From NCBI GenBank assembly GCA_018524725.1, contig JAEUWP010000092.1, forward strand, positions 16,722 to 80,721: DNA of 64,000 bases. The letters are read 5' to 3'. This document shows positions 34,801 to 64,000 of the stretch, piece by piece; position 1 is the stretch's first letter; each line of letters begins with the position of its first letter. Under the pieces are notes generated by a model. The model did not search any database and was not told the DNA's origin. It saw only the letters and a program-made list of their open reading frames with translations. This DNA comes from Podaxis mareebaensis (taxonomy: Eukaryota > Basidiomycota > Agaricomycetes > Agaricales > Agaricaceae). Both the position numbers and the translations under genes were made by a program.

Positions 34801-35250
34801 CTCATTCTCCGATTTCCTCAAAGATAAATCTCGTTCCCAAATCTACTATATTGACATCAATGAAGCACTTGAGAACATATGGCGATGTTATGTTAGGGTT
34901 GTTAGACAGTCCATGAGTTCGCACAGTAAGCCTTCCCCCTATTTTCATGTGTTCGCAGTGATTCATCTGAAATAGACCATATCACGCTATCTTGGGAACT
35001 CAGCGACCCGGAATACCTTCAGCGCTTGGGCTCCAGAGCTCGAGAAAAGTGGTTAGAAATCCTGATCCATTGCTGTCATGAGTGCACTTCATGCCGAAGA
35101 GCGCCCGAAAACCTTCTTTCATTGGATACTTCCGAGTTAATTGAACTTTTTGATGAATTCAGCCCAATCTTGTTCGACTTTCGCGAAGTCGACTTACTAA
35201 AGGGCTTCCTTGACTGGATTTCGGAAGGACATGTACGTTATATACTACTT
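31895..35250 (+). repeat. Segmental duplication, copy A (CpG-rich)
   Basis: Aligns over its length with 36175-39528. Start of similarity: CCCCGTCG(C/T)TTCCCA followed by TATCTTTGCCATACTATG; end: CGGAAGGACATGTA(C/T) and CATATACTACTTACT or its TATA variant. 31895-33389 is non-coding upstream DNA (no gene recognised; similar in copy B) and 33390 onward is the NACHT gene. Copy A retains its CpGs. No terminal repeats or target duplication were found, so whether the unit is mobile is open. Confidence 0.8.
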
Positions 35251-35842
35251 ACTTCCACTAGTGTATCCAGTTCTCACAGTGTCCATAGGCACCGAGTTTG
35301 CTTCGTCAAAGAATGTTTTTCAAGGAGTTTGGCTTGGACCAGCTCAAGGAGCGTGACATCGACAACATGTTTAGAGGTCTTTCTTCGAGAGGCTGGGGCC
35401 GCTGTACTTTTCCGGGTTTTCCACTCCTGGTTGATATCGATTTGACAGTAAGCTGGGATGAACGCGCGTGCTCTAAATACCCTGTCTAAGGCCACCGCTT
35501 CTCTTTCAGGGCATTGACGCTTCCGAATGGAACCAAGTCAAGCAGCGTGCCCTGAACGGGGTGCCGTCTTGGGAATTTTACCCGCGGGCCAACTGGAGAG
35601 TCCTTCAGGAGCTGCTGAAGGAAAAGGAGACATTTTATGAGGGATCTGGACTCACCTTGAAGGACATTCAGGTAATGATTGTGGGAATGAGGCCATCCGA
35701 GTATTGCGCGATTGTTGGGCCGTTGGTGAGATACTCTCCCTCCGCCAGGAGGAAAGGGTCCGTGTATCTTGTAGTCCCTTATACTGAATCTACGGAGGAG
35801 CATGTCCCAGGCGATCCCAATGAAGGGCGAGGTCTGAGATGA
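33390..35842 (+). CDS. NACHT-domain NTPase (Agaricomycete NLR-like), copy A, apparently intact
   Basis: Five exons: 33390-33519, 33588-34925, 34976-35232, 35289-35447, 35510-35842; 738 aa. N-terminal leader of about 43 aa (HHFSINQPVMGEQIAINNA) is followed, through a 68-nt intron, by LEKMLNHIIPRAEFDSS and PPRCHPGTR, the usual entry to mushroom NACHT proteins. Walker A is GPAGVGKSAI (about 100), Walker B WVVLLDGLDEC (about 195), sensor-like IWIIASRPEAHL. Helical winged regions follow, with ISLLDVCNILGF and SVRFLHASFSDFLKDKSRS. No WD40, TPR or ankyrin repeats come after; the last 180 aa are unique. Such proteins are expanded in mushrooms and are proposed to act in recognition of non-self or cell death; the function here is unknown. 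The exon 3 acceptor (AATAG at 34975) is the least certain. Confidence 0.85.
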
Positions 35843-36174
35843 GAGGCTATGGTCGTCAAGCAAATCCGGGATGGTCTTATGCCAGCTCTTGATTTTCCTT
35901 AAATTTGTTTTTGGTTTTGTTTTATAATATGTGGTGGAGATGTGTATGTTTTGTATAGAAATCAATCTTCAGCAAGTTGCTGAACATAGACAGACTGTTG
36001 AGCATCTTTTTAGTTCCCATGCCAATAGAATTGCCGGTACCAGTCCGCACATGATCTTCCTTGCGCTTCCTGCGCTGAGCATTCACCCATGTTATGCATG
36101 TATAGCAATCAAAACTGGAAATAGGCACTCATACATGATGTGTTCGTCAAAGACAAGACACCTCGTTAGAGGGT
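35843..36174. other. Spacer between copies A and B
   Basis: About 330 bp, T-rich, containing the 3' flank of the NACHT gene. No gene, terminal repeat or target duplication was seen that would mark the junction of the duplication. Confidence 0.5.
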
Positions 36175-39100: not shown

Positions 39101-39528
39101 ACTATATTGATATCAACAAAGCACTTGAGAACATATGGTGATGTTATGTTAGGATTGTTAGACAGACTATAACTTTGTCCAGTAAGCTTTCCCTTTATTT
39201 TCATGTATTCACAGTGATTCATCTGAAATAGGGTATATGATGGTCTCTTGGGAACCCAAGAAGTCAACCCATGTTGATCCTCTTCAAGCAAATCTGTGTC
39301 TCACAGCTCAAAGAAAGTGGTTAGAAATCCTGATCCATTGCTGTCACAAGTGCATTTCTTGTCAAAGAGTGCCCAAAAACCTTCCACTGGATACTTCCTG
39401 AGTTGATTGAAGTTTTGATGAATTTGGCCCAATCTTGTTCAACTCTCACAATGCTAACTTTATTGTGAGCCTCTGCAACTAGATTTCGGAAGGACATGTA
39501 TGTCATATACTACTTACTCCCACTAGGC
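36175..39528 (+). repeat. Segmental duplication, copy B (CpG-stripped)
   Basis: Second copy of the 31895-35250 segment. Many copy-A CpGs appear here as TpG or CpA. It contains about 270 bp (about 37365-37640) absent from copy A. It lacks the last 600 bp of the NACHT gene. From 36480 on, CpG is almost absent. Confidence 0.8.
37640..39142 (+). pseudogene. NACHT NTPase, decayed copy B
   Basis: Collinear with the intact gene at 33390-34930. Readable parts include the leader (HASHFSINQPIMGEH), the region LAVDPTFLSKSLEEQFEHLF, Walker B WVVLLDGLDECNGK and the end HASFSDFLKGKSHSQIYYID. Breaks: the Walker A area is frameshifted (38000-38040), and stops occur where the intact copy has CGA. One is TGA at 38431-38433 opposite CGA at 34175-34177; another is at about 37919 in the PPRCHPG segment. 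The 3' exons 3-5 are reduced or missing. Not expected to make a protein. Confidence 0.88.
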
Positions 39529-39805
39529 ATCATGAATTTCCTGCACCTGCACCCACACCCTACTGCAGGACATGGCAGTGGTACCAAGCCTACTGCATAT
39601 GTCAAGTAGCAGTACTGTATGGGGTGTGGTAGTGGTACTGGATGCAGTCAGTGGTAGCAAGAGCTAGGTAACTATATGTATTAGGTCACAATGTTAGTGA
39701 GTAGCAATCTACAATAAATATGAAGATGCAAGGCATTTTCAGAATGAAATTTTTTGGTAATATAGCTACTCTCATTACTACTGATAGTTTTACATCAAGT
39801 GGTAC
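39529..39805. other. Non-coding stretch between copy B and minisatellite
   Basis: CpG-free DNA with scattered versions of the minisatellite words (GTGGTACTGGATGCAG at about 39632), so the array may have been longer. No gene seen. Confidence 0.4.
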
Positions 39806-40260
39806 TGGATGTATAATGCAGTACTGGATGCAGCACACCCATGGTACCTAGCAGTACTGGATGCAGCACACCCATGGTACCTAGCAGTACTGGATGCAGC
39901 ACACCCACAGTACCTAGCAGTACTGGATGCAGCACACCCATGGTACCTAGCAGTACTGGATGCAGCACACCCATGGTACCTAGCAGTACTGGATGCAGCA
40001 GACCCACAGTACCTAGCAGTACTGGATGCAGCAGACCCACAGTACCTAGCAGTACTGGATGTGGCACACCCATGGTACCTAGTGGTACTGGATGCAGCAC
40101 ACCTGTGGTACCCAGCAGTACTGGATGCAGCACACCTGCAGTACTCAGTGGTACTGGATGCAGTATCAGTGCAGTACTCAGCAGTACTGGATGCAGTATC
40201 ATCAAGGTACCTAGCAGTACTGGATGCAGTACCATTGCAGTACCCAGTGGTACCAACACT
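39806..40260 (+). repeat. 33-bp minisatellite, about 14 units
   Basis: Unit GGTACCTAGCAGTACTGGAT followed by GCAGCACACCCAT (33 bp, 11 codons), with variants CCCACAGTACC, CCTGTGGTACC and, towards the right end, more divergent units. Because 33 is divisible by three, several frames stay open on both strands as 11-residue repeats; that is a by-product. Variation among units is mostly TG/CA-type, fitting the CpG decay of the region. Confidence 0.93.
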
Positions 40261-43200
40261 GTAAGACTGTGGTACCCAGTAGGCCTGGATGTTGTGCACC
40301 TGGACTCTTAGCAAAGACTATCATGCATTCTTGCAACAATATCAATTCAGCATCTGTGGTCACTGGATCCACATCCATTGAGAAGCCCAAGTCAGCATCA
40401 GTGTCAGTTGGAATCCTCACTGGAGGTTTTGTTAGTGACCACATGACATCTGTGCTGATGATTCTGTGCATGTATCTGAATGAAAATGAATGTCAATTAG
40501 AAAATACTAGGCTTTTGCAGCACTCAGTAGTAGTAACCAGTGTTTCATTATAAGTATGTCTTGATTCATATCAGTTATTATTACATTTCTAAGGCAAATC
40601 GAATGTCAATTAAAAAATACAATGCTTTTGCTTGAGTTACTCACCAAGGAACCAGTACCTCAAATCCCAATCTCTTTGTAATGTCCTTATTGTCCCAATG
40701 CCCACTGATTCCATACAACAGGACAGCCACATCTCCCAATTTTGGTGGAGCATGGAGAGTGCAAAACTCACAGTTTTTGGAATTGAATAGATGCATGGTG
40801 GCATGTTGTGGATGGGACACCAGTTCGCCTTTGAAGGTATGTCCAACTGCACTACTCCCAGGTTTCAAATGAATGTAAAACTAGAAATAATATACACACA
40901 TTAGTAATGCAGATACTGGCCCCTCCAACCCATGTTCCTTCACGTGGTTCACCATGTCCAGCCATATGGCCCCCAATCCCTCCTCCACCATTGGCTGTAT
41001 ATTTGAATGATGTCTAAGAGTTTTTTTCTTGATGTTTCTGCCCAAATATATGCCAATTATGTTCTGTCTTTCATTTTCCATGTTGGTAATTGAAATGAAT
41101 ATGAAGTAGAGAGTTGGAGGAGGAGCAGTGTGCTTCACCATCACTATGTTAGCACCTAATTAGGGCATGTAGAGCTTAATGTGATGGGTGTTGCATTGTC
41201 ACTGTCCACAGTAAATCCAAGTCACCTTAGTAGCTTGTGTCTGATGCAATATGCAATAGCCTAAGGTTGGAATATCTAGGATGAGACCATATAGCCATAT
41301 ATCAAGAATCATAGACTTAAATTATAATTTTATAATGCTAGGGACTGATTCATCCTCCCTAAGTCCTGATTTCGGGTTATTAGTACCCAATACACTATCC
41401 CATGCACTGAATAACTTGTATTTTGATGACAATTGGGCACATCCTGTGCCATGCAATCTTTAGTTGTGACCTTGAAAATACTCCCAGAAGATTCCCCAGC
41501 TATAATAAACTGAATGAGAACATGGCATGATTATCCATAGTTCTTCCCTCCAACCATTTATAACTATTATCAACACTAATCCCCACACAGTAGCATGACA
41601 TATTCTGTGCTTGTACAATATAGCCATAAAGGGCATATCTCCTCCCAAAAAGGGACTGATCCAGATGACCCCAATCAATGGATCAGCAACATGGCCAGCT
41701 GGTTATCACATGGCTGCTCTTCATATGGAAATTGCAAATGATGAGCTTAGGCAGTAGGATGAGATGTGGGCCCTAGGCTGGGTGGTATGTCTGAGATATG
41801 AAGTGTAGCTGTCATTGAGCCTCTCTCCAGGAATTATATGCATAGACACAACTGCAGCACATGTGGCTTTTCACTACTACCCTGGAGAAGGCACAGTGGG
41901 CACTTCTGACACTTTGGACAACTTAAACATGAGGGAGGACCCAGCCAGCAATCATTCTTGACAGTGTTCATCTTGCCTCTCTTTTGTCACCCTGGTCTTG
42001 GATCCAGTGTGACTCACAGTTTTCATGGTGAAGTAGAATGTATGGTATATTATTTGGGACTGTATTCTAAAACCAAAAAGACCTTAATAGAAAACTTCAA
42101 TGACAACCTCAATGTAGATGATGATTATGGGTGGAAAAGTCATAGGGATGTCAATGGTACTATCAAAAAATGGCAGGCCTCTCAAGATCTTGAGGATGGG
42201 ATCCTTGAGGGAATGGCTCAGCAGTTGAGGTAAAGAGGGAGGTGTCAGTGGTGTCAGCCTCTATTTAGTGGTATCAACCTCCAATTACAGAATGATTATC
42301 CTTGAATCACTCACCTCCACATCTGGTAACTCAGACAAATGTAGATTCCTTGGGTTGATCATATTGGATTCCTGAACTATGATATAACCAAAAACACAGT
42401 CAGAGCAAGTAGAAAGCACTCACAGTCAGGGCAGGTATGTGTCAGTTGAAAAATGGCCAGGCAGGTCTAGTAAGGCAATGAGTAATCTCCATATATATGC
42501 TAGTGGACATGTTCAGGGTTACCATTACACAAACAGATGAAAACTCACATGTTGCATGTGGGTCCATCCAGATATCCCCAACATTCTCCTTAAAGGGAAG
42601 TAATCCTTAGACCCTTGGTGGTTCCTCCCTCCTGCCAACATCAATGCCTGGAATGACTAGAAGGATTTCATAATCCCATTGGGGGTTTTGATACTTTGGG
42701 AGATACCTTATATCAGTTATAATTCTACAGAGTTTGTTAGTTACTGCAAATTTGAAATTTCTATTGAAAAGGAAACTTATCATCCACTGTCATGTTTTCA
42801 ACAGCCACATCATATACCACTTCTTATGCCAGAGACTCTACAATCATGGTGCTTGTAAGCTTCCACTGCTGATGCTGAAACAAGGTGAACTCATGTTATG
42901 AAAGGGCTTTGTCAATCACTGTCTTAGTTATTTTCGCCAAACTTCTCAACCAAACTCTCTTAATCTGACTTCTGCCTTGAACCCTTCTAGTCCCCAGGGC
43001 CACCACTAAAACAAGCTGCTTCCATTGTCACAGCAATCTCACCCAGGGAACCAGCTATTGCATCATCATGTCCATCCCACAACTGCCAACCACACTACCA
43101 CTTTCCTGACACAAGTGCTGCCAAATTGGTCACAGGAAATAGGCTCTGCCATGTGTTCTTCATGTAAGACCAGTTAACTTGTAATCAGGCATTTTCAAAC

Positions 43201-44713: not shown

Positions 44714-44802
44714 ATCACTTCCTTTCTCAGTAACTACCACTATCATTTCAGTGGCACAGTTATTCGTAGCACAAGGAATAAAGTTTTCTTTTCTAAATCA
44801 CT

Positions 44803-47430
44803 ATGTTGAACTCTAAGGAGACTAGCGGCTTCCTTGGAGGTATGAAGAAGACCGCCAACAGCATCTGTTCCAACATCGCCCATCGTCGGCGTTCAAGCGC
44901 CAGTCTAGCGCCCAATCCGACTCTTCCTCGAGAGGCCTCTGTCCCTCTTTTCAATGACTTTCAAGTTAACGAGGACTTTATTTGCAAACCCCCTTCCCCC
45001 TCACCATCTATTGGAGCCAAGCGCTCTTACTCCACCGACCACTCTCTCTCAAATTGCCTTGAGAAGAGTATGAAACTTCGAGAGGATGACGACGCTGCCT
45101 CTGTCTCTTCTGCTGAGGAGAATGATGACCAAGACAATTCACAGGGAACATCTACTCCCAAATCTATCGCCCCATCTCTTCCACCGGTTCGAGAAGATAT
45201 CGACTTGTCACCTGAAATAGCTCCCTCTTCTCATATGATGCTGTCTCCAGCCCAAGCCATCGCTGCATCACACGGCTTCGTCCCACCCACTCCTGGAGCT
45301 GCTTGGGACGAGTCCCAACCCTCGGATCCTCTCCCCACTATCCCATCTTTCACCCCTCTCTCCTCTCAACCACCCGCTGTGCAGCCTCATGTTGAAGCGC
45401 AGCCAACCCATGGAATGGATTGGTCATCTGTCCGCAATACACTTGGTGATGGCATCTGTATGATCGACATCACCAATACTAGTGACGTCATGGGGCTTAA
45501 TTGTCTCAACTCCTTATTGAGTTTCATCTCTTCCTGGTTAGGCAACTGGGCCCAATCGGGCGATCTGTCCACATTTGAAGGAGTTCCTCATCTCATTCAC
45601 ATTTTCCAGACTGTCGCACACTCAGAGCAGTTACGCAACATGTCTGTTCCTTACAACGATACACGCCTTAAACTGTATGACTTCGTGTCTATGCAGTTCC
45701 CACCCTCTCATACTCTCTCTCCTACTCCCACACCCATGTCAACTGGGCACTGCCACGAACATCGGGCTGAAAAGGCACTGGCAGTGTCCTCCCCTACCCC
45801 CAAAGACGCCCCGGGAATTCTCCAGGGCTCTTCCCCCATTCCCACACCTGACGCCTCTGGTATGTCCCAGGGCTCAGTTTCGCAATTCGAAAGGGACACT
45901 GCACGAGCAATCGCCCTCTCGCGTCTTCCTCCGGCTGACCCTAACAAACCAGGTGAGTTGTCCAAATCTATTATAGATGCTGACATGCTCCCTCCCCCCC
46001 CTCCTCCTCAATCCACTGTCCCTGCCACCCCTGGTCCATCCAGCCAGGGCAATAAGGCTAACCCTAACCCTAGTGGCTGGTCCACTGTTAATTGTCGCTG
46101 GGCGCCTCACAAAACAGTAGCCGCCCCCTCTCAGCATAAGCCTATTGTGATGCCTGCTTTCCCCCCCAAGGAAACCCATCCCCTTTCCCCTCGCCCCTCC
46201 CTTCCCTCCTCCACCCCCCCTCCTATCAACAAAGCCACCAAACCTCATTATAGGTCTGGTGCGCCTTCTCCCTCCACTCAGAGGACATCATACTCCAAGG
46301 CAGCTTCGCAACCGACCCTCAAAGTGGATGAGCTGTCAAAATATGCGGCTCTCCAAAATCAATTCCCTTCCATGTCACCGGTCGACATTATCAACTTCCT
46401 TCGCAATGCAGGGGACATCAAATCCCCTGCCCCCAAATCTTCTCCCTCCCCCTCTTCTCGCCCCTCCAGCTCCCCTAAGGCCACCCAAGGCCCATCCCGC
46501 AAGAATATCGTTGTCCTGTACAACGACATATTCAAACCAATAATGATCACCTCCCTCGACCTCGTAATCAGGTGCTGCAACAATGCCCTATACCAAAAGG
46601 GCTTCCTTCTCAAAATCGAGTCAGCAAAATCCAATGACAGGACCCTCTGGCTCTCCACTAACCAAGTCGTGACTGACGAGGAGCTTCTCATCATTAAGAA
46701 AGGCATCACGGACTCGAACCGGTCCGCGTTTGCTACCCAGGACATCAGGGATGCCGTTTCCCCTTCCCTACCCATGTCCAAGTCGTTCGTTAAATTAACG
46801 AACCTTCCCTACTTCCACCATGACAGTACCCCCCATGTCTTGGATGACTTCAAAGAAGTCATCGTAAACTCTCCCTACCATGAGATGATCCAACATCTCG
46901 TTGGTAAACCACGTTTCTGCAGAGTCTCCCCCCATTCTGATTCCGCCATTCTCTTCTTCGACCTTTGGGACTCTCAGTCAGCCTCCAGGGCCAAAACCCT
47001 CATTAACCATACCCTGCTCTTTGAAAATTGTGTCTGCACCTTCCACGGCGTGTCCATGCACACAGCCTCCCCTCTATGCAACTGTTGCTGGAGGTGGGGC
47101 CACCCCACCCACCTTTGCAGAGCACGCAACCCCAGATGCGCTATCTGCGGAGACCCCTACCACACCGACAACCACTGCCGCGATGGCTTCTGCTGCCGTG
47201 GCAAACCTGGTCCTAACCCGCACCTCCCCACTCCTGCAAACATCACTGAGTGTCCTCACGCGACCTCCTTCAATTGCCTCTCATGTGACTCCAAGGAACA
47301 TCACGTGAATTCTGACAAATGCCCCTTCTTCCGTCACCGTTTTGATCGGGAATGGATCTCCAATAAGCTTCAGGAACTTAAGGCCGATAAGAACCGTCGC
47401 GACTTCAACTCAGGTGCTGTTAATGTCTAA
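44803..47430 (+). CDS. LINE ORF1 protein (gag-like, zinc knuckles)
   Basis: Open frame of 875 aa without interruption. The first 450 aa are Ser/Pro-rich and disordered (YSTDHSLSNCLEKSMKLRED, PPPPPPQSTVP). About 560-720 is a more ordered region that would fit an RRM-like chaperone fold (VVLYNDIFKPIMITSLDLVI). The C-terminus has CCHC-like knuckles: CNCCWRWGHPTHLCRARNPR, CAICGDPYHTDNHC and CLSCDSKEHHVNSDKCPFF. It should bind the element RNA. The stop TAA overlaps the ORF2 start in ATGTCTAA. The start is the ATG at 44803, shared in position with the second copy. Confidence 0.9.
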   Translation: MLNSKETSGFLGGMKKTANSICSNIAHRRRSSASLAPNPTLPREASVPLFNDFQVNEDFICKPPSPSPSIGAKRSYSTDHSLSNCLEKSMKLREDDDAASVSSAEENDDQDNSQGTSTPKSIAPSLPPVREDIDLSPEIAPSSHMMLSPAQAIAASHGFVPPTPGAAWDESQPSDPLPTIPSFTPLSSQPPAVQPHVEAQPTHGMDWSSVRNTLGDGICMIDITNTSDVMGLNCLNSLLSFISSWLGNWAQSGDLSTFEGVPHLIHIFQTVAHSEQLRNMSVPYNDTRLKLYDFVSMQFPPSHTLSPTPTPMSTGHCHEHRAEKALAVSSPTPKDAPGILQGSSPIPTPDASGMSQGSVSQFERDTARAIALSRLPPADPNKPGELSKSIIDADMLPPPPPPQSTVPATPGPSSQGNKANPNPSGWSTVNCRWAPHKTVAAPSQHKPIVMPAFPPKETHPLSPRPSLPSSTPPPINKATKPHYRSGAPSPSTQRTSYSKAASQPTLKVDELSKYAALQNQFPSMSPVDIINFLRNAGDIKSPAPKSSPSPSSRPSSSPKATQGPSRKNIVVLYNDIFKPIMITSLDLVIRCCNNALYQKGFLLKIESAKSNDRTLWLSTNQVVTDEELLIIKKGITDSNRSAFATQDIRDAVSPSLPMSKSFVKLTNLPYFHHDSTPHVLDDFKEVIVNSPYHEMIQHLVGKPRFCRVSPHSDSAILFFDLWDSQSASRAKTLINHTLLFENCVCTFHGVSMHTASPLCNCCWRWGHPTHLCRARNPRCAICGDPYHTDNHCRDGFCCRGKPGPNPHLPTPANITECPHATSFNCLSCDSKEHHVNSDKCPFFRHRFDREWISNKLQELKADKNRRDFNSGAVNV

Positions 47431-50400
47431 AGGACCTCTTAACCGCCCTGCTCCTTCTTCTATTTCTTCAATTCCCATTCTTTTCTTTAATGTGCACCGC
47501 TCCTCTTCTCTCGTCGAACTCCTTCTCAATGACCCCCTCTTTAAAGACGTCTTAATTCTATGTCTCCAAGAACCTCCATTCAACGTTATTCGTAACGTTC
47601 CCTCTACTGACAACTCTGAAGGAGTCCCGTATAGAGGCACGCCTTATAACCCCAACTGGCATATTTTCTTGTCCAATGAGGACCGCCCTAGAACGGCCAC
47701 ATTCATTCGATGCTGTTGCGACTCGCTCTTACCTACCTCTCATCTGAACATCATCTCTTCCCCAGACTTTCAGCTCATCTCACTCTCTTTCCCCCGAAAG
47801 ATTTATTTTCTTAATTGTTACTTTGATCCTTCAGACGACTCTTCCATCTCTTTCCTTGAAGAACATGTTCATCTTCTCCCCAAGGGAATCATATGCGCTG
47901 GAGGCGACTTCAACTCCCATTCTCCCGAATGGGACCCCCATATCACTCATCATACCGCTCGAGGCGATCTGCTTATTGACATTATGAACTCTTTAGGCCT
48001 CTCCCTTTCTTCGCCATCTCAAGAGAAATACACTCACATCCCTTTTGATGGTAATAAACACCCATCTGTTATTGACCTAATCTTCATGATAGATGAACGA
48101 TCTCAAAGCCCAGTCCACCAAATCCGTGACGACTGGCAATTCACATCGGACCATCGCCCACTCCTCACTTCCCTCTCCACCCCTTCCCCCTTCCAACCAT
48201 TCATCGAAAAACTCACGATTCCCAGAGATTCGGAGGAAGAAGCTACCTTCCTCTACACAATCAGTGTCCGTCTCCAAAACATCCCTCCCACTTTTCACTC
48301 CGTGGAAGACATTCACTCATATGCTCAGTCTATGTCCCAAATCATCAACCAAGAATGGCAACGTAACGCTAAACTTGTCAAAATTTGCGCGCGCTCTAAA
48401 CCATGGTGGAACCTGGCATGCTCCTCTGCCCTCAAGGCTTTTCAATCTCACAAATCCAAATCCAACTGGACCAAGTTCCGGCGCACCACCCGCACTGCCA
48501 AACGCCTCTTTTTTGACAAAAAGATCAAAGACATAGCTGAGGAAGATCGCCGCCCCTGGGACCTGATGTCTTGGATTGGAAAGCGTAATCTTCCCCCCTC
48601 ACAATCCATCACTTTCAATGGGAAGAGTTGTGATGAGCTAGATGACCTCTGGCACACTCTCAACTCTTCTTACAATTCTGCTTTGGAGCACCCAGTCGAC
48701 CTTGACGCCATCAATTCACTTAACACTCATCCAGAGCACCCATGGCTCCCATTCTCCAAGGCTGAGCTGTTTGACGCTCTCAACCCCTGTGCCAACGCCT
48801 CCGCCCCAGGCCCTGACCATCTGTCATGGGCCCACGTCAAACACCTCATGTCCAGCGACATCTTCCTCCATAACTTCCTCACTTTCGCCACCAAATGCAT
48901 CGAATACTCTACATGGCCGGAACATTTCAAGAACTCCACCTCTGTTATCATCCCTAAACCTAACAAACCCCACTACTCTACCCCAAAAATGTTCCGGCCA
49001 ATAGTCCTCCTTAATACCCTCGGCAAACTCATCGAAAAGATGATTTCCGCCTGAATGCAATTCAAAGCATCACAACTCGACCTCGTTCACCCCCTCCAAT
49101 TCGGCGGCATCATCCAACACTCGACTGAAGATGCCGGTGTATATGTCACACACTTAGTCCGCTCAGGATGGAAACGCAAACTCAAAACCAGCGTCATTGC
49201 CTTCGATGTCGCTCAATTCTTCCCATCCACTAACCACTGCATCCTCACTACCACTCTTCAATGCCAAGGTTTCAATTCTCGGCTTGTTTCTTTCTTTTCC
49301 GATTATCTAAGTAACCATTTCACAACTTATTCCTGGAACAATAATTTGTCTCCTAAATTCTCTGCTTCTGTTGGCATTGGCCAAGGTTCCGCCCTTTCCC
49401 CCATCCTCACAGCCTTATCCCTTTCCCCCTTTATGTACAAATTTTTGAATGATCCTCGCTGTAAAATAGTTTCTTTTGTTGATGATGGACTTATTGTAGT
49501 TCAATCAGACTCTTTTCACACTAACTGCCACCTTCTTTCACAGGTCTACAAAAACTGTGAAGAATACCTTCGCCGCCTTGGCTTTGTCCTCGAAAGAGAC
49601 AAAACTGAGGCCTTCCACTTCTCCAACCGACCCTCTCACGAACCCAATCCCCCCGTTATCATCGACAACTCCCTCACCATCACTCCCAAACCCTTCCTAC
49701 GCTACCTCGGCTTCTGGTTCGACAGAAGTCTCTCTTTCAAAGAACACATCCGATTCTACTCCACCAAGGCGCTCTCTACCGTCCGATGCATGCGCATGCT
49801 TGGCAATTCCATCCGCGGTCTCTCCCCCCTCCACAAGAGACTTTTATATTGATCCTGTGTCATTCCTATAGCGACATATGGATTCCGTCTTTGGTTCAAC
49901 TGCAACGCGAGATACTGCGGTCTCATCAAGTCTCTCCAACGCATGCAACGACAAGCCGCCTTATGGATCACAGGCGCATTCCGCACCACCCCTACAGGTG
50001 GGGTTGAGGCCATCGCAGGTCTTATCCCCATCCAACTCCATCTCTTCAAGCTCACCAAGCGATGCTCCCTCCACTTCCACACCCTCCCCCCTTCCCATCC
50101 TCTCAAACTCCTCACGTGCGACATCGACCCCCTAGACGTGCGCCACACCAAACTACGCTCAACGGCACTCGACTTTATCTCAGATGCCCAACTGGTCACT
50201 GACTGGTTCCAGCATCTCCACCCTAGCACCAAACCTGGTCAGCGTCTACTGGACCTATTCACTGATCAAATCAAGTTCATCCAGTGCCCTGACCCTTCGA
50301 AAGAAGGCACCATGGCACTTCACATCGCCAACACTTCCTGCACTCGGGATCTCTCCTTCTCCTCCCCTGTCTCCCTCGCCATAGCTACTGATGGTTCCGT

Positions 50401-51343
50401 CCCCTCTAACCCTTCCCTCTCTGCCACATCTGCTTTCCTTGTCTTCAACTCTTCTGAATCGGACATTCTTTCTTCCGCTGTTCACCCTTGTGGTGAAGTC
50501 ACCTCTACAGACTCCGAATCATACGCTCTACGCCTTGGTTTATTTTCTTCTATTTCTCTTGCCAGATCTCTTAATTCCTCCTCTATTGTAGTTTTCACTG
50601 ACTCAATTTCTTCTGCTAAACTCCTATTTTCCTATAGACCCCACAGCGTGCATCCAGACTCCATAGCGGTCGCTCCTCTCCTTCACTCCTGGCTCTCCTC
50701 CTCCCCTCTTAACCATGTCCACTTCTGGTCGATCCCCTCGTCCGCCAACTGGTCCATCCATCATAAGGCACACACCCTCGCTAAATCCCTCCGCCTTCCC
50801 AACCCACGTCGCCAACCCATCCGCACTTCCCTTGGGTTCGTTCACAACCACTATACTCAGAAATGCCTATCCCTATGGCAACAACTAATGAACAACCCAT
50901 CTTACTGCAGCCATAACTGGCTCCCTCTCCTCAATCCCGCATTGCAACCCCTTCTACCCAAGTACGCCAAAGGTGGCACTTGGCTCAACTCGCCCCTCGG
51001 AAAGAACACCAACTTATGCACACACTTCATGCGTTGCGTCACCAATCATGTGCCCATCGGCGCCTTCCGTCAGCGGTTCTTCCCTGGGCGTCATATCACC
51101 TCATGCGCATGCGGTGAACCACTCGAAACTCGCAACCATATATTTGACGACTGCCCCCGCTTTCACTACCCAGTAGGAGCCCGCGACGGTTTCTTCTGGG
51201 TCATCCAGTTCCTAGACAAAAACCCCGTGGCCTTTTCATTTGCTGACCAGATCCAAGGACCCGTCACTCAAGAGGAGTTCACCACCTGCCACCTCAACAG
51301 AAGAGAGCGACTTGCAAGAAACGGAGTACCAGATGTGCACTGA
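47423..51343 (+). pseudogene. LINE ORF2: endonuclease, reverse transcriptase, RNase H; two in-frame TGA
   Basis: One frame of 1307 codons, broken only by TGA at 49052-49054 and 49850-49852. An APE-type endonuclease comes first (VLILCLQEPPF, GGDFNSHSPEW, SDHRPLL). The reverse transcriptase follows, with ASAPGPDHLSWAHVK, MFRPIVLLNTLGKLIEKM, AFDVAQFFPSTN, GIGQGSALSPIL and FVDDGLIV. RNase H shows SLAIATDGSVPSN, TSTDSESYALRLGL and VVFTDSISSAK. The C-terminal knuckle is CACGEPLETRNHIFDDC. Both stops replace what is probably an Arg CGA codon, as expected from CpG deamination. All catalytic motifs persist, so it is very recently inactivated, or a readthrough copy. Confidence 0.93.
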
Positions 51344-52402: not shown

Positions 52403-52604
52403 CAACCACCTGATACTGCTGCAAAGCTGATCCCCAGGGTCAAGATGGAATCTGGTCAAGAAAATGGTGAGGACCTCAGTGAAGACACTGTCAGCAAGGT
52501 TGGTTGACCACCTGATACTGCTGCAAAGCTGATCCCCAGGGTCAAGATGGAATCTGGTTGAGAAAATGGTGAGGACCTCAGTGACAACACTGTCAGCAAG
52601 GCCT
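52403..52604 (+). repeat. 101-bp tandem duplication inside T1
   Basis: Two adjacent copies (52403-52503, 52504-52604) starting TCAACCACCTGATACTGCTG and TTGACCACCTGATACTGCTG. The first difference, TCAACC versus TTGACC, is the CA/TG pair expected from one TCGACC after independent decay. Confidence 0.9.
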
Positions 52605-53910: not shown

Positions 53911-54966
53911 TTTGAGCCTGCTATGCAGAACTGGGAATTGATTTCCTGGAAACAGACCTCTTCCATAGAGCATCACTGATCTGTTATGTGAGAGAGGACC
54001 TATCTCTCATGGATCCTAAATACTGGGTCTGGACAAGGTTTCTGACCAAGACCTTTGAATATGTCCACCCTTCTTTAACACATGTGTATCCAAAACTGCC
54101 TGACCAGTTGAGCTTCCTCATCGAGCTGTCTGCCATGGAATTGGAGGACACTGACAAAGAGGAGAAAGCTGTTGTGGAAAGCCTGAAGGATGGTCAGGCA
54201 GCCATTGAGGTAGAGCAAAAGGCTGCCACTTCACTCATTCCCCAATTGTGTGCCTGGAGCACTGACATGGAACATGAAACTCAGTCATATGGAATCCATA
54301 TTCAATGTTGTTGTGGCATGACTGGTGATTATGATGAGGTTCATTCCATTCATCATGGGCAATTGGTTCAGTGTCTTGGGTGTCTATGCCACTGTCATGT
54401 TATATGTCAGCAATCCCCAGCAACACATGACACCACTGCAAGACAATGATTTAGATGCCATGAGTGTGCCCTACCACCTCCTATGGAGAGTGCTAGAATT
54501 GCACTGTTGTAGGTACTGCAGGATATACATGAGACCATCACTGACAATTCTTGTAGAGTGAGGAGATACAAAGTGGAGCAGCTGCCATCTGGAGCAGCAG
54601 GGCTTAGGTGAGTTATTCTAGCCAGGAGAGTGCAGTTATTACTTACCAGTCTCAGAGTGGGTCAGGGCACACTGGCCTGTGTAGGTGACTTCTGGCACCC
54701 AGTTTGACTAGTGGAGTACTTGGAACAGGATTCCGGATGGAGAGTAAAATGGTGGAGAGGCTGTGAGATCCCCAATGACCCAAACCTTCTGGGGACAGTG
54801 ACAGTGATTAAAGAAGGGTGTCTTGTTATGTCATTATGGAAGCAGTCCAAGGAACAAAGATGTATATGAGTAAGCTTGCTGTAGTCATGGCTGTTTGCAT
54901 TCTGACCCCACCACTTAGCTTGGCAAATGGGTTTTGGCATGCAATGCAGAGAAATACACCCTGACT
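53911..54966 (+). pseudogene. Element T1, part 2c: PHD-like finger and RWWRG-type domain
   Basis: At about 54295-54410 the text CCCGMTGDYDEVHSI, then QLVQCLGCLCHCHVICQQ, has the Cys/His spacing of a PHD finger. Next (54660-54870) comes GDFWHPV..LVEYLEQDSG, WRVKWWRGCEIPND and LVMSLWKQSKEQRC, and a probable intron (54868-54914, gtaagc..cttag), then LGKWVLACNAEKYTLT. That frame runs straight into 61235 if the gypsy element and one target duplication are removed. A BAH- or Tudor-like reader role for the RWWRG part is a guess. Confidence 0.6.
54962..54966 (+). repeat. Gypsy target-site duplication, left copy
   Basis: TGACT directly before the 5' LTR; repeated at 61235-61239 after the 3' LTR. Confidence 0.9.
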
Positions 54967-55226
54967 TGTTATGGTCTCAGTTATATTTAGTACACACTTA
55001 CTCAGTGCACTGTCTCACCTTATGTTTCAGCCCCTTATTACACTTTGCCTTAGTCATCCACTGACTCATCTCTCTGTTTCATCTATTCTTAGATACTACC
55101 CTCACAGTATATAAACCCTAGGTAGAACCCCTGTATTCCTTATGCTTTACCAACTAGTTCTTTTCCCTTTGCTCATCCTCAAGTCTTTGCCTAGTTGCAA
55201 CCTGAGTTCATACAAAGGTTGTAACA
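54967..55226 (+). repeat. Gypsy 5' LTR
   Basis: 260 bp, no CpG. Contains AGTATATAAACCC, a likely TATA box, at about 55107. Differs from the 3' LTR only at 54972-54973 (TG) and 55011-55012 (TG). Confidence 0.97.
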
Positions 55227-55228
55227 TT

Positions 55229-55245
55229 TGGTAAAGTGTCACCAA
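55229..55245 (+). promoter_or_regulatory. Putative primer binding site
   Basis: TGGTAAAGTGTCACC starts two bases after the LTR and begins with the TGG that pairs with a tRNA CCA end. Which tRNA is not determined. Confidence 0.45.
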
Positions 55246-55338
55246 CTCACCTTGCAACAAGGAAGGCCCAGCTAGGGGCGTATACCGAGGCACAACCAGG
55301 TGTGACAACAGTGCTCAATTAGGAGTGAGGCTCAGTGT

Positions 55339-56463
55339 ATGAGTGGAAGCAACATTTGGAATAGTCGAGAAGGAACACCAGCACCATACAGCTTAGGACA
55401 AACCAGGGAGCCATCAGTGGCAGAGTTTTCAGACATTACAGAGAGCAAACACACCAATGACAAAGAGACTACTGAGTCAGAACTTGAAGACCAGCCAGTA
55501 CCTGCAGACAAAGAACAACCAGAGGAATTGGCAGATGAAGAAGACCTAGAAGAACCTGCAGATGAAGAAGAACCAGTAGACAAAGAAGACATCGATATTG
55601 AAATGGCTGAAGAAACAGCAGCAACTCAGCAGACAGGAGGGAAATCATTGGTCCCTGATCCAGGATTTTTCAATGGAAACAGAAGCCAGTTCAATGACTG
55701 GTGGAGGTTGATGACATTTTTCTTGAAGTTCAACAAGATCAACAACACCAACAGAAGGGCAGTAGCAGTACTCTCTCAGATGAGAGGAGGAACTGCAGGA
55801 CAATTCGCAAGCATGAAGCTTGACCAAATGGAGAACAGCAATAACACACTCGTGTGGGACACATTCTAGAAGGAGATAGAGGCAACATTCAGAAATGAAG
55901 GACAACAAAGCAATGCAGAATGGAGAATTGAGACATATAGGCAGAACAACAAACACACAGCAGACTTCCTCATTGAATTCAATGTATTGAAGACAAGGTC
56001 CAAGACAGATGACAAACACACCATATTCCTGCTCAAGAAGAACACATGTTCAGACATTATCAAAACCATATTGGGATTCCCAATCAAAGCGATGCCTGAG
56101 ACCTACAAGCAATGGAAGGAAACCATCCTGAACATTGGCTTAGGTTATGAAGCAGTGGAAACCCACACCAGACACACAGGAACCAGCATTACATATGGAG
56201 GAATGGGTCAACCAATGGAGATAGGGAGACAGATGATGCCCAACAGCAAGGCACCACCCTGATGTTTCAAGTGCAACATCATAGGGCATATCACCCAAGA
56301 CTGCAAGAAGCCAGAAGGAAGCCAGTGTTTCAACTGTGGCAAAGAAGGACACATCTCTAGAAATTGCAGAGCACCCAAGAAGGCACGAATCAGGAACATG
56401 GAGGAGGAACAAGAAGGTGAAGAAGGACCAGAGCAGCAGGGTTTTTCCAAAGGCTCAGAGTGA
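55339..56463 (+). pseudogene. Gypsy gag (capsid and two zinc knuckles), broken
   Basis: Starts at ATG 55339 with an acidic N-terminal part (Glu/Asp-rich to about residue 95). Capsid-like text follows: PGFFNGNRSQFNDWWRLMTF, ADFLIEFNVLKTRS and MPETYKQWKETILNIGLGYE. The C-terminus has CFKCNIIGHITQDC and CFNCGKEGHISRNC. Stops at 55867 (TAG) and 56263 (TGA) interrupt it. The first is not explained by CGA to TGA. Confidence 0.92.
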
Positions 56464-56479
56464 GTATGAACTCTCGAGC

Positions 56480-59400
56480 CACTGTATTTAAAGCTTCTTC
56501 TAGACAATCATACATGATTCCCCAAAGAAGAAGTGGAGTGTGAGAACTCTTTGTGAAACCAAAGGTTTGAACACCCAGAAACAAGCAATGGAGACCAACA
56601 ACACTGGTTGACTCTGGATGCACACACACCTGCATTGCCAAGAAAGCAGTCGAGGAACAAGAGATACCAATGAAGAAGTTAGAGAAACCATTCAAAGTAT
56701 ACAACACTGACAGAACTTGCAACAAGGGACAGAACATCATGGAATACACAGAACTGGAAATGGACATCAATGGACACAAGGAACAATTGGCAGCAGTTGT
56801 CTCACACATCGACTGAGCAGACATATTCCTAGGACATGATTGGCTAGTACAACACAACCCTGAGGTCGACTGGAATAATGGACAGATCAGATTCACAAGA
56901 TGCCCACTGGAATGCAAAATCAAGCATGAAACCATTGACATACCAAGGCTAAGAAGGAATGGCACACAGGAAGAAAAAGTACCAGACAAGATGGCAGAAG
57001 ACAACCTACCAGAATACATCTGAGGCTATATGCACCTGTTTAACAAACAGAATTTCAACAAACTACCAGACCACACAGAGTAGGACCATGAGATCAACCT
57101 CACTGAGGAAAGCCCATGTGAACTACCAGCCAAGGTTTACCCCATGATGGTCAAGGAAAAGGATGAACTCCATAAATTCATTGAAGAGAACCTCACATCA
57201 GGATGAATCCAGCCATCGAAATCCCCCTATGCATCACCATGCTTCTTCATCCCAAAAAAGGACAGATCCAAATGATTAGTACAAGACTATCAAAAACTCA
57301 ATAGTGTCACGGTCAAGGACAAAACACCGCTACCATTAATCAGAGAAATCATTGACAAGCTAAAAGATGCCAAATACTTCAACAAGCTGGACATCATCTG
57401 GGGATACAACAACATGCACATCAAGGAAGGAGATGAGTGGAAAGCAGCATTCCCAACAAATGAAGGACTATTTGAACCCACCATTATGTTTTTTGGTCTA
57501 TGCAACTCCCCAAGCACATTCCAAAGAATGATGAACACGGTCTTCTGAGAACTACTGCAGGAGGGAGTATTGGTCAACTACATGGATGATTTCCTCATCC
57601 CAGGCAAAACAGAACAAGAACTTGAAGAATGGACAATATGATTCCTGAAGATAGCTGACAAGCACAAGCTTTACTTCAAATGATCCAAATGTGTATTCAA
57701 TGCAAAAGAAGTGCCAATATTGGGAATGGTAGTAGGAGATGGAAAGGTCAAGATGGAAGAAGAGAAGGTGGTAGCAGTCAGAAACTGGCCTACCCCAACC
57801 ACAGTCAAGGACATTGAGAGCTTCCTAGGCTTTGCAAACTTCTACTGGTGATTCATCAAGAATTTTAGCAACATTGCAGGACCACTACACAAGCTAAAGG
57901 GGGGACAACCATGGGAATGGGGAGAAAGTCAGCAGAATGCATTTGAAGAACTAAAATGATGCATAACTGAGGAACTGGTACTAGCACTCCCACAAGATGA
58001 TGGAAAATTCAGAGTAGAAGTTGACACATTGAAATATGCCATTGGAGGAGTCCTATCACAAGAACAGGGAGGAAAATGGCATCCCATCACATTCCTATCC
58101 AGAACACTATCACTGGCAGAATGCAACTATGAGATATATGACAGAGAACTCCTCACAATCATTGAGGCACTAAAAGCATGGAGGCAATACCTACTCAAAG
58201 CAAGGGCACCATTTGAAGTTTGGACTGATCACAAGAACTTGGAATACTTCTGATCCCCATGATGAGTAAATGCAAGGCAAATGCAATGGCACCTGAGACT
58301 ACAAGAATATGACTTCACACTAAAACACATACCAGGGAAGACAAACACCAAGGCTGACATCCTATCACGAATCATGCACTTCAACGAAATAGAAGAAGAC
58401 AAGGAGGTCACAATACTCAAAGATGCACTATTCCAATGATGACTCCATCATGAAGAGACAATTACAGAAGAAGTCATCCTAGGAAGAGGACTATTCGAAG
58501 TAAAAGGAGATGAAGAAATACTGAAGGACATCAAGGGAGGAAGGAGAGAAGCAATAGTAGACAAATGGCTAAAGGAAGAACCTGAACAGACATGGGAATG
58601 AGAAGGAATCACATATCGAGACAGCAAAATCTATGTACTGAACCACAAGGACCTATGAAGCAAGATCATGAAGAGATACCATGACCCACCCAATATCAGA
58701 CACCCAGGATCCCACAGGATGATGGAGCTTATCAAGCAGACATACTACTGGCCAGCCATGAAAGCTGATATCAAGATCTACATACAAGGATGCAACAGCT
58801 GTCAAAGGAACAAAGCAATTTGGCAGAAGAAGGCAGCCCCACTCCACCCCCTTGAAACACCCAAAGGACCATGGCACAAAATCAGCATTGACATGATCGG
58901 ACCACTCCCAGAATCAAATGGAGCAGATGCAATCCTAGTCATCATGGACAGATTTACCAAGATGATCCAATTGATTGCAATGAACACCAACCTTGACTCC
59001 ATGGGATTAGCAAAGATATATCGAGACCACATTTGGAAACTCCATGGTGTTCCATGGAGGATCATTAGTGACAGAGGACCACAGTTTGCATCAGCATTCA
59101 TGAAGAACCTATGCAAAGCAACAGGGACAAAGCAAGGATTGTCAACAGCCTACCATCCCCAAACAGATGGACAAACAGAGTGGGTCAACCAAGAGGTTGA
59201 AACCTTTTTATGGGCATACATCGACTACACTCAAGACAACTGGACAGAATGGCTGTCCACAGCAGAGTTCCAATACAATGACAAAACTCACAGCAGCACA
59301 GGAGAAACCCCATTCTTCCTCAACTATGGATGACATCCTTGGAAAGGAGATCTCACCATAGAGTCACTAACACCATCCATCATGGAACTCCTCAAGAAAC

Positions 59401-59959
59401 TTATAGCATGCCAAGCTCAAGCCAGAGGATTATTAGAAAGCAAGAGACAAGCCATGACAAAGCACTATGACAAAAGGAGAATGGCAAGCAGGGATTATGA
59501 AGAAGGAACCCAGGTGTGGCTTGAAGGAACAAACATAATGACAAATTGACCAACCAAGAAACTTGACCACAAGTGCTATGGACCCTTCAAGGTACTCAAG
59601 AAAGTAGGACCAGGAGCATACCAATTGGAGCTACCAGAAGGATGGGTCATCCATGATGTATTCAATGAGGCATTACTAACACCATACCAACTGCTGAAGT
59701 TTGTGAATCAGCAAGCCGAACCACCACTGCAACCAGAGCTCATTAATGGGGAAGAAGAATATGAGGTAGAAGAGATCTGAGGACATCACAAGAAAGGCCA
59801 AGGAATGCAGTACCTCATGCACTGGAAAGGGTACAGCAACAAGCACAACACATGGATAGCTGAATCAGCACTCGAGAACACTTAGGAGGTGTTACAGGAT
59901 TATCTCTGAAGGTTTCCTGGAGCAAAACCTATAAAGAGGGGGGGTAATCAACAGTTATA
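56480..59959 (+). pseudogene. Gypsy pol: protease, RT, RNase H, integrase, chromodomain; broken
   Basis: Protease TTLVDSGCTHTCI (about 56600), RT with SPYASPCFFIPKKDRSK, FNKLDIIWGYNNMHIKEGDE, FGLCNSPSTFQRMMN and the catalytic YMDD (about 57583). RNase H shows ITFLSRTLSLAECNYEIYDR and WTDHKNLEYF. The integrase has an HHCC zinc part (HPGSHRMMELI, CNSCQRNK) and the DDE core (SIDMIGPLPES, RIISDRGPQFAS). The end has the integrase GPF box and a chromodomain (EYEVEEI, stop, YLMHWKGYSNKHNTWIAES). More than ten stops are present. Most are TGA where Arg (CGA) is usual, for example before LVQDYQ and in FYW-stop-FIK; TAG at 57082 and at 59883 are exceptions. The true end may be the TAG at 59957. Confidence 0.94.
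59933..59944 (+). promoter_or_regulatory. Internal polypurine tract
   Basis: AAAGAGGGGGGG followed by TAATCA, directly after the chromodomain. It has the form of a chromovirus plus-strand primer site but lies 1.03 kb before the 3' LTR. Confidence 0.6.
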
Positions 59960-59994
59960 GCAGCACAACAGCCCAAGCAAATTCAAATGAAGAC

Positions 59995-60939
59995 ATGGAT
60001 GCAGACCAAAGCACCCAGACCTTTGTCCCTACCACTCCCCCTACTGACACCCTCATTGCTGACATCAAACAACAGCTGTCAAACAACAACCCAACCAAGC
60101 AATTCGAAGAACACATACAACTAGCATGAGACATTGTCCACCTCCAATGAGTATACAACAATGTATGAGAAGCTGTCCAGCTATTCGCTGAAGCAGTCCA
60201 AGCTACTATTCCACAAGTCCACAACTCAGCCAAGGGGTCAGGACAAACCACCCAGATGAACCAGCACATCCATATCATCCTCCACAATGCCAACAAATAC
60301 CTCATATCTGACACAAGCAACTGGTTTACAAGCATCCTAGTCATGGTGGCAGAGTAACTCTCCAAGTTTGGTATAATGGACAATGAAGAAAAGGAGAACC
60401 TTGTATCATGCCTTGTAGCACTCACCCAAGAAAGGGACCCCTTCCCTCATGACCACCCAACTCCATGACCTGCCCCACAACACTACCCCCTAACCAACCC
60501 AGAATCAGATGACAAAACCCCCACCACCAAAGAAGAGGTTATGCACCTCATCAAGTTCCTCACCCCCAAATGCACAGGACCTGCCAAAGTCGAGAAGTGT
60601 GAGCCCCCAGTACCCTTCAAAACCTTGAAGAAAGATGGTGAGAAAGATGAAGAATACTGGAAGAAGATTTTACAGGTCCTAATCCAAGATCACAGCAACA
60701 CTGGCACCACCTACCATGGCACCATGATCCCCATGTATGGTAGAGGACCTGACCACATACCATTCTTCATTGCCTGGAAGAAAGCCACCAACCAGTTCTT
60801 CATTGGTCCTAACAAGAAGGATGTCACCCACTACATCACTCATTGACTACAAGAACCCCCAACATTCAAAGAAGCCCAGAATTTCCTTGCACATTTCACC
60901 TTTCCAGTACGCTGTAACTTACACAGACCCTTACATTAG
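59995..60939 (+). pseudogene. Extra gypsy ORF of unknown function between pol and 3' LTR
   Basis: One frame of about 315 codons from ATG 59995 (MDADQSTQTFVPTTPPTDTL) to TAG 60937, broken by TGA at several places, including 60126-60128 and 60843-60845, plus one TAG near 60356. Readable parts: NQHIHIILHNANKYLISDTS, KEEVMHLIKFLTPKCTGPAK, DEEYWKKILQVLIQDHSNTG and PMYGRGPDHIPFFIAWKKAT. No zinc finger, signal peptide or membrane helix was seen, so an envelope protein is unlikely. Restoring the frame is not attempted. It resembles neither gag nor pol. It may be a captured gene or part of the chromovirus lineage. Confidence 0.65.
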
Positions 60940-60961
60940 TTTCATATGGTCATGACACCTT

Positions 60962-60971
60962 AGGAGGAGGG
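60962..60971 (+). promoter_or_regulatory. Polypurine tract before 3' LTR
   Basis: AGGAGGAGGG three bases before the 3' LTR (TGTTAC). Confidence 0.7.
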
Positions 60972-60974
60972 TGA

Positions 60975-61234
60975 TGTTACAGTCTCAGTTATATTTAGTA
61001 CACACTTACTCAGTGCACCATCTCACCTTATGTTTCAGCCCCTTATTACACTTTGCCTTAGTCATCCACTGACTCATCTCTCTGTTTCATCTATTCTTAG
61101 ATACTACCCTCACAGTATATAAACCCTAGGTAGAACCCCTGTATTCCTTATGCTTTACCAACTAGTTCTTTTCCCTTTGCTCATCCTCAAGTCTTTGCCT
61201 AGTTGCAACCTGAGTTCATACAAAGGTTGTAACA
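60975..61234 (+). repeat. Gypsy 3' LTR
   Basis: 260 bp; identical to the 5' LTR except CA at 60980-60981 and 61019-61020 where the 5' LTR has TG. Confidence 0.97.
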
Positions 61235-61239
61235 TGACT
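61235..61239 (+). repeat. Gypsy target-site duplication, right copy
   Basis: TGACT, matching 54962-54966. Confidence 0.9.
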
Positions 61240-62531: not shown

Positions 62532-64000
62532 CTTCCTTTCTCAGTAACTACCACTATCATTTCAGTGGCACAGTTATTCGTAGCACAAGGAATAAAGTTA
62601 CTCGTTCTAAATCATTATGTCAAGCTCTAAGGAGACTAGCGGCTTCCTTGGAGGTATGAAGAAGACTGCCAACAGCATTCGCTCTAACATTGCCTGCTGT
62701 TGACACTCAAGTGCTAGCTTAGTGCCCAACCTGACTCTTCCTCAAGAAGCCTCTGTCCCTCTCTTCAATGATTTCCAAGTCTCTGAGGATTTCATTTGAA
62801 AGCCCCCTTCTCCTTCACCATCTATTGGAGCCAAACACTCCTATTCAACAGATCAATCCTTGTCAAATCAACTGGAAAAGAGTATGAAGTTTAGAGAAGA
62901 CAACGACACTGCTTCTGTCTCTTCAGCTGAAGAGAACACAAACGAACATAGTGAGGAAGGCTCTCAAGGCCTTTCTACCCCCAAATCTATCCACCCTTCT
63001 ATTGCGCTGGTTCACAATGAAATTGACATGTCTCCCGAAATAGCCCCCTCACCTCATAGGGTACTATCCCCTTCTCAGTCCATTGCTGCTGCCCACAGCT
63101 TTGTACCACCCACTCCTGGCGCAGCATGGGATGAATCCCACCCATCTGACCCCCTTCCTGCTATTCCCTCCTTCACTCCCATTTCCCCTCCTCCTCTTGC
63201 TGTGCAGCCTCATGTTGAAGTGCAGTCGACCCATGGAATGGATTGGTCATCTGTCTGTGAAGCACTTGGTGATGGCATTGCCATGATTGACATCACCAAC
63301 ACTAATGACATCATGGGGCTTAATTGCCTCAATTCCTTATTAAGCTTCATTTCTTCCTGGTTAGGATACTGGGCTGAATCTGGAGATCTCTCCTCTTTTG
63401 AGGGCATTCCCTATCTCATCCACATCCTCCAAATCATTGTGCACTCTGAGCAATTGCACAACAAGTCAGTCCCTTATAATGGACAACAACTCAAACTGTA
63501 TGACTTTGTGTCTATGCAGTTCCCCCCATCACACACTCTCTCTCCCACCCCAACACCTATGTCTACCAGTCATCACAATATCCATCGGGCTGAAAAAGCA
63601 CTGGCTGTGTCTTCCCCTTTCCCCAAGGATGCTACTGGGATTCTCCAGAGCTCCTCCATTAATCCCCCTGACACCTCTGGGCCTCCCCAGGGCTCAGAAT
63701 TGCAATTCGATAAAGACACAGTGTGAGCAATTGCCCTTTCTTGTCTTCCCCCTCAAGATATAAACAAACCAGGTGAGTCTTCTGGATCTAACATTGATAC
63801 TGAAATGCTCCCCCCCCCTCCCACCACTACCACCACTCCCAACGCCCTCCCTAAGGATCAAACCTCAGGGACAGGCAACACCAACACTAGCTCATGGACA
63901 TCTGTCACCCATTGACGGGTGCCTTGTAAACCAATAGCTGCCCAAGCTCTGCATAAGCCTATTGTCACTCCTGGTTTCCCCCCCCAAGCCCCTAAACCCC
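62532..64000 (+). mobile_element. Second LINE copy, CpG-decayed, runs off right edge
   Basis: Aligns from its first base (CTTCCTTTCTCAGTAACTAC) with 44718 onward of the intact LINE. Conserved through the 5' UTR and ORF1 to the window end. CpGs of the young copy appear as TG or CA, for example CATCGTCGGCGTTCAAGC versus CCTGCTGTTGACACTCAAG. Confidence 0.93.
62617..64000 (+). pseudogene. LINE ORF1, decayed copy (partial)
   Basis: Starts MSSSKETSGFLGGMKKTANS, as in the young copy. Stops at 62701-62703, 62798-62800, 63724-63726 and 63913-63915 are all TGA. The one at 63724 sits where the young copy has CGA (45904-45906). Zinc knuckles would be beyond the window. Confidence 0.9.

Follow-up and report, generated by a model that had tools for sequence, protein, structure and literature searches.

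Decay of methylated CpG is known from vertebrates, where deamination turns CpG into TpG or CpA on both strands, at sites that behave independently of each other, and where a preference for ACG is known. In mammals the resulting mutation excess is roughly tenfold. The decay that we describe here shares the products, the use of both strands and the independence of sites, but its excess is far larger, several hundredfold against some tenfold in mammals. In mushrooms, CpG hypermutation of transposons is already known: the portion of the Tricholoma matsutake report that was available describes a C-to-T bias at CpG in repeats, and lists two masc2 copies and neither rid nor dim2 (PMC6980582). That case is alike in being a CpG hypermutation of mushroom transposons. 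It is unlike ours in resting, in that portion of the report, on a dinucleotide bias with RIP presumed as the cause (PMC6980582), whereas we use LTR pairs verified by their target-site duplications (TSDs), together with strand and flank tests against RIP. RIP in Neurospora crassa also decays repeats by C-to-T change, but according to the available part of the source (PMC4352252) it favours CpA, whereas here CpG stands far above CpA. In Microbotryum the same kind of decay is described, in the same partial text (PMC4352252), for TpCpG, whereas here ACG is favoured over TCG. For CpG signatures, Amselem et al. proposed, in the part available, deamination of methyl-cytosine involving a Masc2-like gene (PMC4352252).

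The window, by which we mean the whole stretch of 64,000 nucleotides of Podaxis mareebaensis DNA analysed here, carries a Ty3-type LTR retrotransposon at 54967-61234 on the plus strand, the strand of all features given below. The sequence TGACT is found on both of its flanks (54962-54966 and 61235-61239), hence the element is a single intact insertion. It resembles Ty3/gypsy elements (Metaviridae) in its TG...CA LTR ends and 5-bp TSD, in a purine-rich stretch ahead of the 3' LTR, and in the order reverse transcriptase, RNase H, integrase with a weak protease match before them. These Pfam domains lie at 56571-56816 (aspartic protease, a weak RVP_2 match below cut-off), 57276-57548 (reverse transcriptase, RVT_1), 57960-58253 (RNase H, RT_RNaseH) and 58659-59333 (integrase, Integrase_H2C2 and rve). 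No structural difference from Ty3/gypsy was found; this copy has broken frames, and the domain matches fall in separate open pieces.

Each LTR is 260 bp long (54967-55226 and 60975-61234). Only four bases distinguish the two, and these form two reciprocal dinucleotides: TG at 54972-54973 against CA at 60980-60981 (site 1), and TG at 55011-55012 against CA at 61019-61020 (site 2). This is precisely what a first-pass annotation of the sequence had described, and its remark that no CpG is left in either LTR is equally correct: the count is 0 in each, where about 7.9 would be expected at an observed/expected ratio (O/E) of 0.9, the level of the window's gene-rich part. When four random changes were simulated, two reciprocal TG/CA pairs arose in 0 of 400,000 trials with 57% transitions and in 2 of 400,000 with 96% transitions.

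Relatives of the element allow the history of these sites to be followed. We scored 63 LTR copies from the host genome (an assembly of 36.95 Mb in 429 contigs), a sample that does not exhaust the family; a first search gave 86 candidate LTR places, 40 of which were scored, and two more queries were then added. Site 1 reads CG in 2 copies, TG in 34, CA in 25 and something else in 2, and site 2 reads CG in 5, TG in 25, CA in 29 and TA in 4. Among 15 TSD-verified pairs, the window element included, the two LTRs disagree as TG against CA in seven at site 1 and in three at site 2, that is, in six and two other elements, respectively. Because CG is retained in relatives and paired LTRs disagree, each of the two sites is a CpG whose decay runs separately in the two LTRs, as the annotation had proposed. 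Three more sites are live in the same way, with CG present in some copies and TG/CA disagreement within pairs: 55006-55007, 55143-55144 and 55220-55221. At all three the window element reads TG in both LTRs, by loss either before or after insertion. Site 55220 is the mirror position of site 54972 in the terminal inverted repeat of the LTR, and copies beginning TGTTACG... as well as copies ending ...CGTAACA occur. Column 55080 reads CA/CG in one pair.

It might also be thought that TG and CA are old subfamily variants, joined by gene conversion or by recombination between elements. Such variants do occur in the family: at four other LTR dinucleotides (columns 54993, 55021, 55046 and 55075) the copies carry TG, CA or TA, and as paired LTRs disagree there in 0 of 60 cells these are inherited subfamily variants. 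Conversion would, however, move these four columns too, yet none of the 60 cells disagrees, and relatives still carry CG at sites 1 and 2. We consider this explanation very improbable. The possibility of separate TG and CA subfamilies, which the annotation itself had raised against its reading, is therefore accepted for the four columns and rejected for sites 1 and 2, where pairs disagree and relatives have CG. A comparison of further LTR pairs of the family, which it had also suggested, did not bear out differences lying mainly outside CpG at these two sites.

Our main count is made of the 15 LTR pairs with an exact TSD. They hold 20 reciprocal TG/CA differences, 9 CG/CA and 2 CG/TG (11 of CG against TG or CA), next to 26 other transitions, one transversion and no indels; CpG sites thus account for 51 of the 78 mismatched bases, and for 4 of 4 in the window element. 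Five of the 15 pairs lack any non-CpG difference (C20, C215, C294, C319 and C353), the C319 pair having no difference at all, and the other ten hold 1-6 each. The annotation's statement that the LTRs differ by no ordinary substitution hence holds for these five pairs and does not extend to the family overall. Three same-contig pairs without an exact TSD were kept out of the main count; 8 of their differences are reciprocal, against 17 other transitions and 3 transversions, and 3 alignment columns hold gaps. The ten pairs with other changes and the transitions and transversions of these three speak against a reading by deamination.

For the rate we used a model in which each of the five live sites was either CpG or already decayed at insertion. 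The modelled CpG share at insertion is 0.84 at 54972, 0.52 at 55006, 0.56 at 55011, 0.52 at 55143 and 0.98 at 55220, and the model gives 2.13 changes per CpG per LTR, which corresponds to a loss of 88%. The background, counted without the live columns and column 55080, is 25 changes in 3,690 aligned positions of the pairs, or 0.0034 per base per LTR, all of them transitions; one transition and the sole transversion lie in live columns. CpG cytosines change at about 314 times the rate of other positions according to the model (bootstrap over elements 221-565), with a floor of 49 if only certain post-insertion events are counted and saturation is ignored. Adding the three uncertain pairs raises the background to 43 changes in 4,425 and lowers the ratio to 244 (175-379). 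The claim that change at CpG runs far faster than background is upheld by the 15 verified pairs. What surprises is how large the excess is; weak repair or very slow background mutation may lie behind it. Loss of internal CpG and other LTR changes were not significantly correlated (Spearman 0.41, P 0.19, 12 elements).

A large rate excess and the near absence of transversions in LTR pairs would also suit a RIP-like premeiotic mutagenesis at repeat CpG, in which an enzyme of the DNMT1/Masc2 type acts in bursts on duplicated DNA. The CpG hypermutation of Tricholoma matsutake has been presumed to be RIP, with a reservation of the authors' own in the available part of their report (PMC6980582). The residue of our LTR pairs mostly looks like cytosine change at CpA: taking C-copies as the base, the other transitions number 17 in 859.5 at CpA, 5 in 1285.5 at CpT and 2 in 657 at CpC. 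In five comparisons of internal copies, which include older divergence, CpA is not prominent (C20 versus C319: CT 42, CA 27, CC 24). CpA is not the main target, unlike in Neurospora-type RIP, as CpG is about 88% lost per LTR in the model and CpA about 2% changed.

Strand polarity provides a second line of evidence. Within 12 internal copies we used 296 CpG-derived sites with at least two TG and at least two CA copies; polarity agreed between copies in 41-61%, a range that the choice of variable sites pulls towards 50%. At 250 sites picked only for having at least one CG copy, decayed pairs disagree in 41%. Within copies residual polarity was not clearly clustered in any of five distance classes (17 of 300 permutations reached the most extreme value, at 300-1000 bp), and there was no strand bias per copy (108 of 300 permutations). 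Polarity is independent from copy to copy and from site to site within a copy. In simulations, 20% strand-locking in 300-bp tracts gave a correlation of +0.023 at 0-100 bp, against -0.012 observed, and 10% locking over whole elements gave an overdispersion of 3.5, against 1.08 observed (permutations 0.97, SD 0.42); locking of 5% would be missed. The strand tracts and per-copy bias looked for as marks of a RIP-like process are thus not seen at levels that would show, although repeated RIP cycles could also randomise polarity, which tells against the deamination reading. Strand-locked decay had been suggested by the window element itself (TG,TG versus CA,CA). However, only two of six TSD-verified elements with at least two reciprocal differences at the five live sites have a uniform sign, and the internal sites, being without clear clustering, contradict it as well.

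The same data bear on a third explanation, namely that the changes arose during reverse transcription or through a cytidine deaminase acting on single-stranded cDNA. The predominance of C-to-T changes would fit, but such a process would mark one strand, whereas TG and CA are both abundant in each of the 12 internal copies. Both LTRs would moreover share any change that preceded integration, and a gene duplicate outside any LTR (see below) decays likewise. We regard this explanation as extremely improbable.

The flanking base was informative as well. At sites with ACG on a single strand, the ACG strand changed 596 times versus 342 (site majority 79:20), and where only one strand reads TCG, that strand changed 526 times versus 728 (38:90). 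Since top-strand events are commoner overall (TG 1325, CA 967), the flank model was refitted with an intercept and bootstrapped over the 250 sites. The odds relative to T are then 1.60 for A (1.30-2.02), 1.26 for C (0.99-1.65) and 0.84 for G (0.61-1.17). ACG is favoured over TCG, CCG probably so, and GCG is not; the flank class with T above and A below has a slight opposite trend (29 to 25). It follows from these odds that TpCpG, given as the Microbotryum context in the available part of the source (PMC4352252), is not preferred in the copies of Podaxis mareebaensis, which counts against a RIP-like process.

Further evidence comes from the CpG landscape of the window. In 2-kb steps, CpG O/E lies at 0.79-1.10 up to 36 kb; past that point it is 0.03-0.20, save for a LINE-like element (44.5-51.5 kb) with 500-bp values of 0.41-0.96. 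In the gene-rich part, a frame of 608 aa is closest, among named relatives, to proteins of Macrolepiota fuliginosa (74%), Leucoagaricus (63%) and Leucocoprinus (62%), which fits a host of Agaricaceae type. A NACHT/NPHP3_N gene region is present in a CpG-rich copy (31900-35270, O/E 0.84) and a CpG-poor copy (36165-39535, O/E 0.11). The 149 aligned CpGs of the CpG-rich copy read TG 63, CA 57, TA 6, CG 12 and other 11 in the CpG-poor copy, while 12 of the 16 aligned CpGs of the latter are kept in the former. Decay is therefore mostly one-sided, unlike in RIP. The two copies nevertheless share some loss, as 31 reciprocal TG/CA differences stand against 3-15 for other kinds of double transition; this points to loss of some CpGs of the region in both lines or earlier, which speaks for a RIP-like process and weakens the argument from one-sidedness. 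The copies are old (79% identical, 186 transversions) and have relatives elsewhere in the genome. Also against a RIP-like process, the CpG-poor stretch at 53.0-54.9 kb has one nearly full-length genomic relative, 78-82% identical. Weighing both sides, we think a RIP-like mutagenesis unlikely. A tandem array (39752-40279, 528 bp, period 33 bp) lies in the CpG-poor stretch adjoining the NACHT-gene paralogue.

The LINE-like element (44718-51343) has long open frames and an endonuclease match and is surrounded by CpG-poor DNA; it has the look of a recent insertion within older, silenced DNA. Its diverged relative at 62532-63726 is poorer in CpG. The 29 CpGs of the CpG-richer copy correspond to TG 16, CA 6, CG 3 and other 4 in its counterpart, and there are 7 reciprocal TG/CA differences, the same trend as in the gene duplicate in a small sample.

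Over classical RIP we favour, and hold to be likely, an explanation by deamination of methyl-CpG in silenced DNA. It builds on direct observation of a TSD-intact insertion, CpG in relatives, independent decay, events on both strands, a large rate excess and methyltransferase gene pieces. A Ty3-type element would insert with CpGs in its LTRs and body, and the host would methylate the CpGs of the inserted copy, probably via DNMT1-like and DNMT5-like enzymes. The 5-methylcytosines would then turn to T on either strand independently, TG recording a top-strand and CA a bottom-strand event. This deamination would be spontaneous rather than enzymatic and would continue until only few CpGs were left. 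With each LTR decaying separately, initially identical LTRs would come to differ at reciprocal TG/CA pairs. Where the annotation had written of methylated or RIP/MIP-like repeats, the strand and flank tests favour the first, as deamination of presumably methylated CpG, and RIP less so.

Candidate enzymes are present in the genome. A PF00145 profile search gave five matches at four loci, which are known from exon matches, and the CpG methyltransferases are predicted ones. Locus C109 is a clear candidate for a DNMT1-like locus, with matches to DNMT1 chains in the PDB and an RFD match 2.2 kb away. On sequence similarity C147 is a predicted DNMT5-like gene: it matches PDB 7r76 at 4.7e-124, an entry named 'DNA repair protein Rad8' which we take to be Cryptococcus DNMT5. 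C150 matches DNMT2 and would be DNMT2-like. C384 has a BAH match below cut-off, and one exon of it compared with the PDB had no match; it is probably DNMT1-like. With regard to RID/Masc1, the methyltransferase of Neurospora-type RIP, the matches would thus class the four loci as DNMT1-like (C109, and probably C384), DNMT5-like and DNMT2-like. From the available parts of the sources, Agaricus bisporus has two DNMT1-RFD genes and methylation in Basidiomycota has a strong CpG preference (2026 review, PMC13297926), and the methylated share of reads at each CpG site averages 0.75-0.76 in repeats of the mushroom Marasmius oreades (PMC9674265).

Against our reading, with an excess far above the mammalian tenfold, deamination could be passive only if G:T repair were weak or background mutation very slow. 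It might be possible, and we propose this tentatively, that in this lineage of mushrooms methylated CpG of silenced DNA is several-hundredfold more mutable than other positions without RIP, perhaps owing to unrepaired G:T mismatches; methylation would then be a mutational defence, slow yet thorough. A search of the whole genome for PF03167 (uracil/thymine-DNA glycosylase family), with exons searched apart so that intron-split genes can be missed, gave no match; we take this as a lead only for unrepaired G:T mismatches.

Our addition is a controlled LTR-pair measurement; the strand and flank tests that accompany it point to deamination more than to RIP. A literature search judged by titles and abstract beginnings found no paper with an LTR-pair test in fungi, and one on RIP strand asymmetry found nothing. 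A reciprocal TG/CA in an LTR pair proves two post-insertion events on known strands, and LTR pairs are a built-in control separating methyl-CpG deamination from RIP, by which a RIP-like process in Agaricomycotina becomes testable in other mushroom genomes. Retrotransposon insertions are dated by LTR divergence; with 51 of 78 mismatches at CpG sites, ages from raw divergence would be inflated about threefold.

Some LTRs of the family have an unusual arrangement. Two TSD-matched pairs lie 26-28 kb apart (C308:10632-38507 and C375:72639-99031), presumably elements opened by later nested insertions. The LTRs at C153:23268-23527 and C185:9958-10217, on different contigs, are 99% identical over 245 bases and have the common flank ATTCC; they may belong to one element that the assembly broke apart, or represent two haplotypes. 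In the window, a 95-bp tandem duplication lies at 52405-52601, and its copies also differ at a CA/TG dinucleotide.
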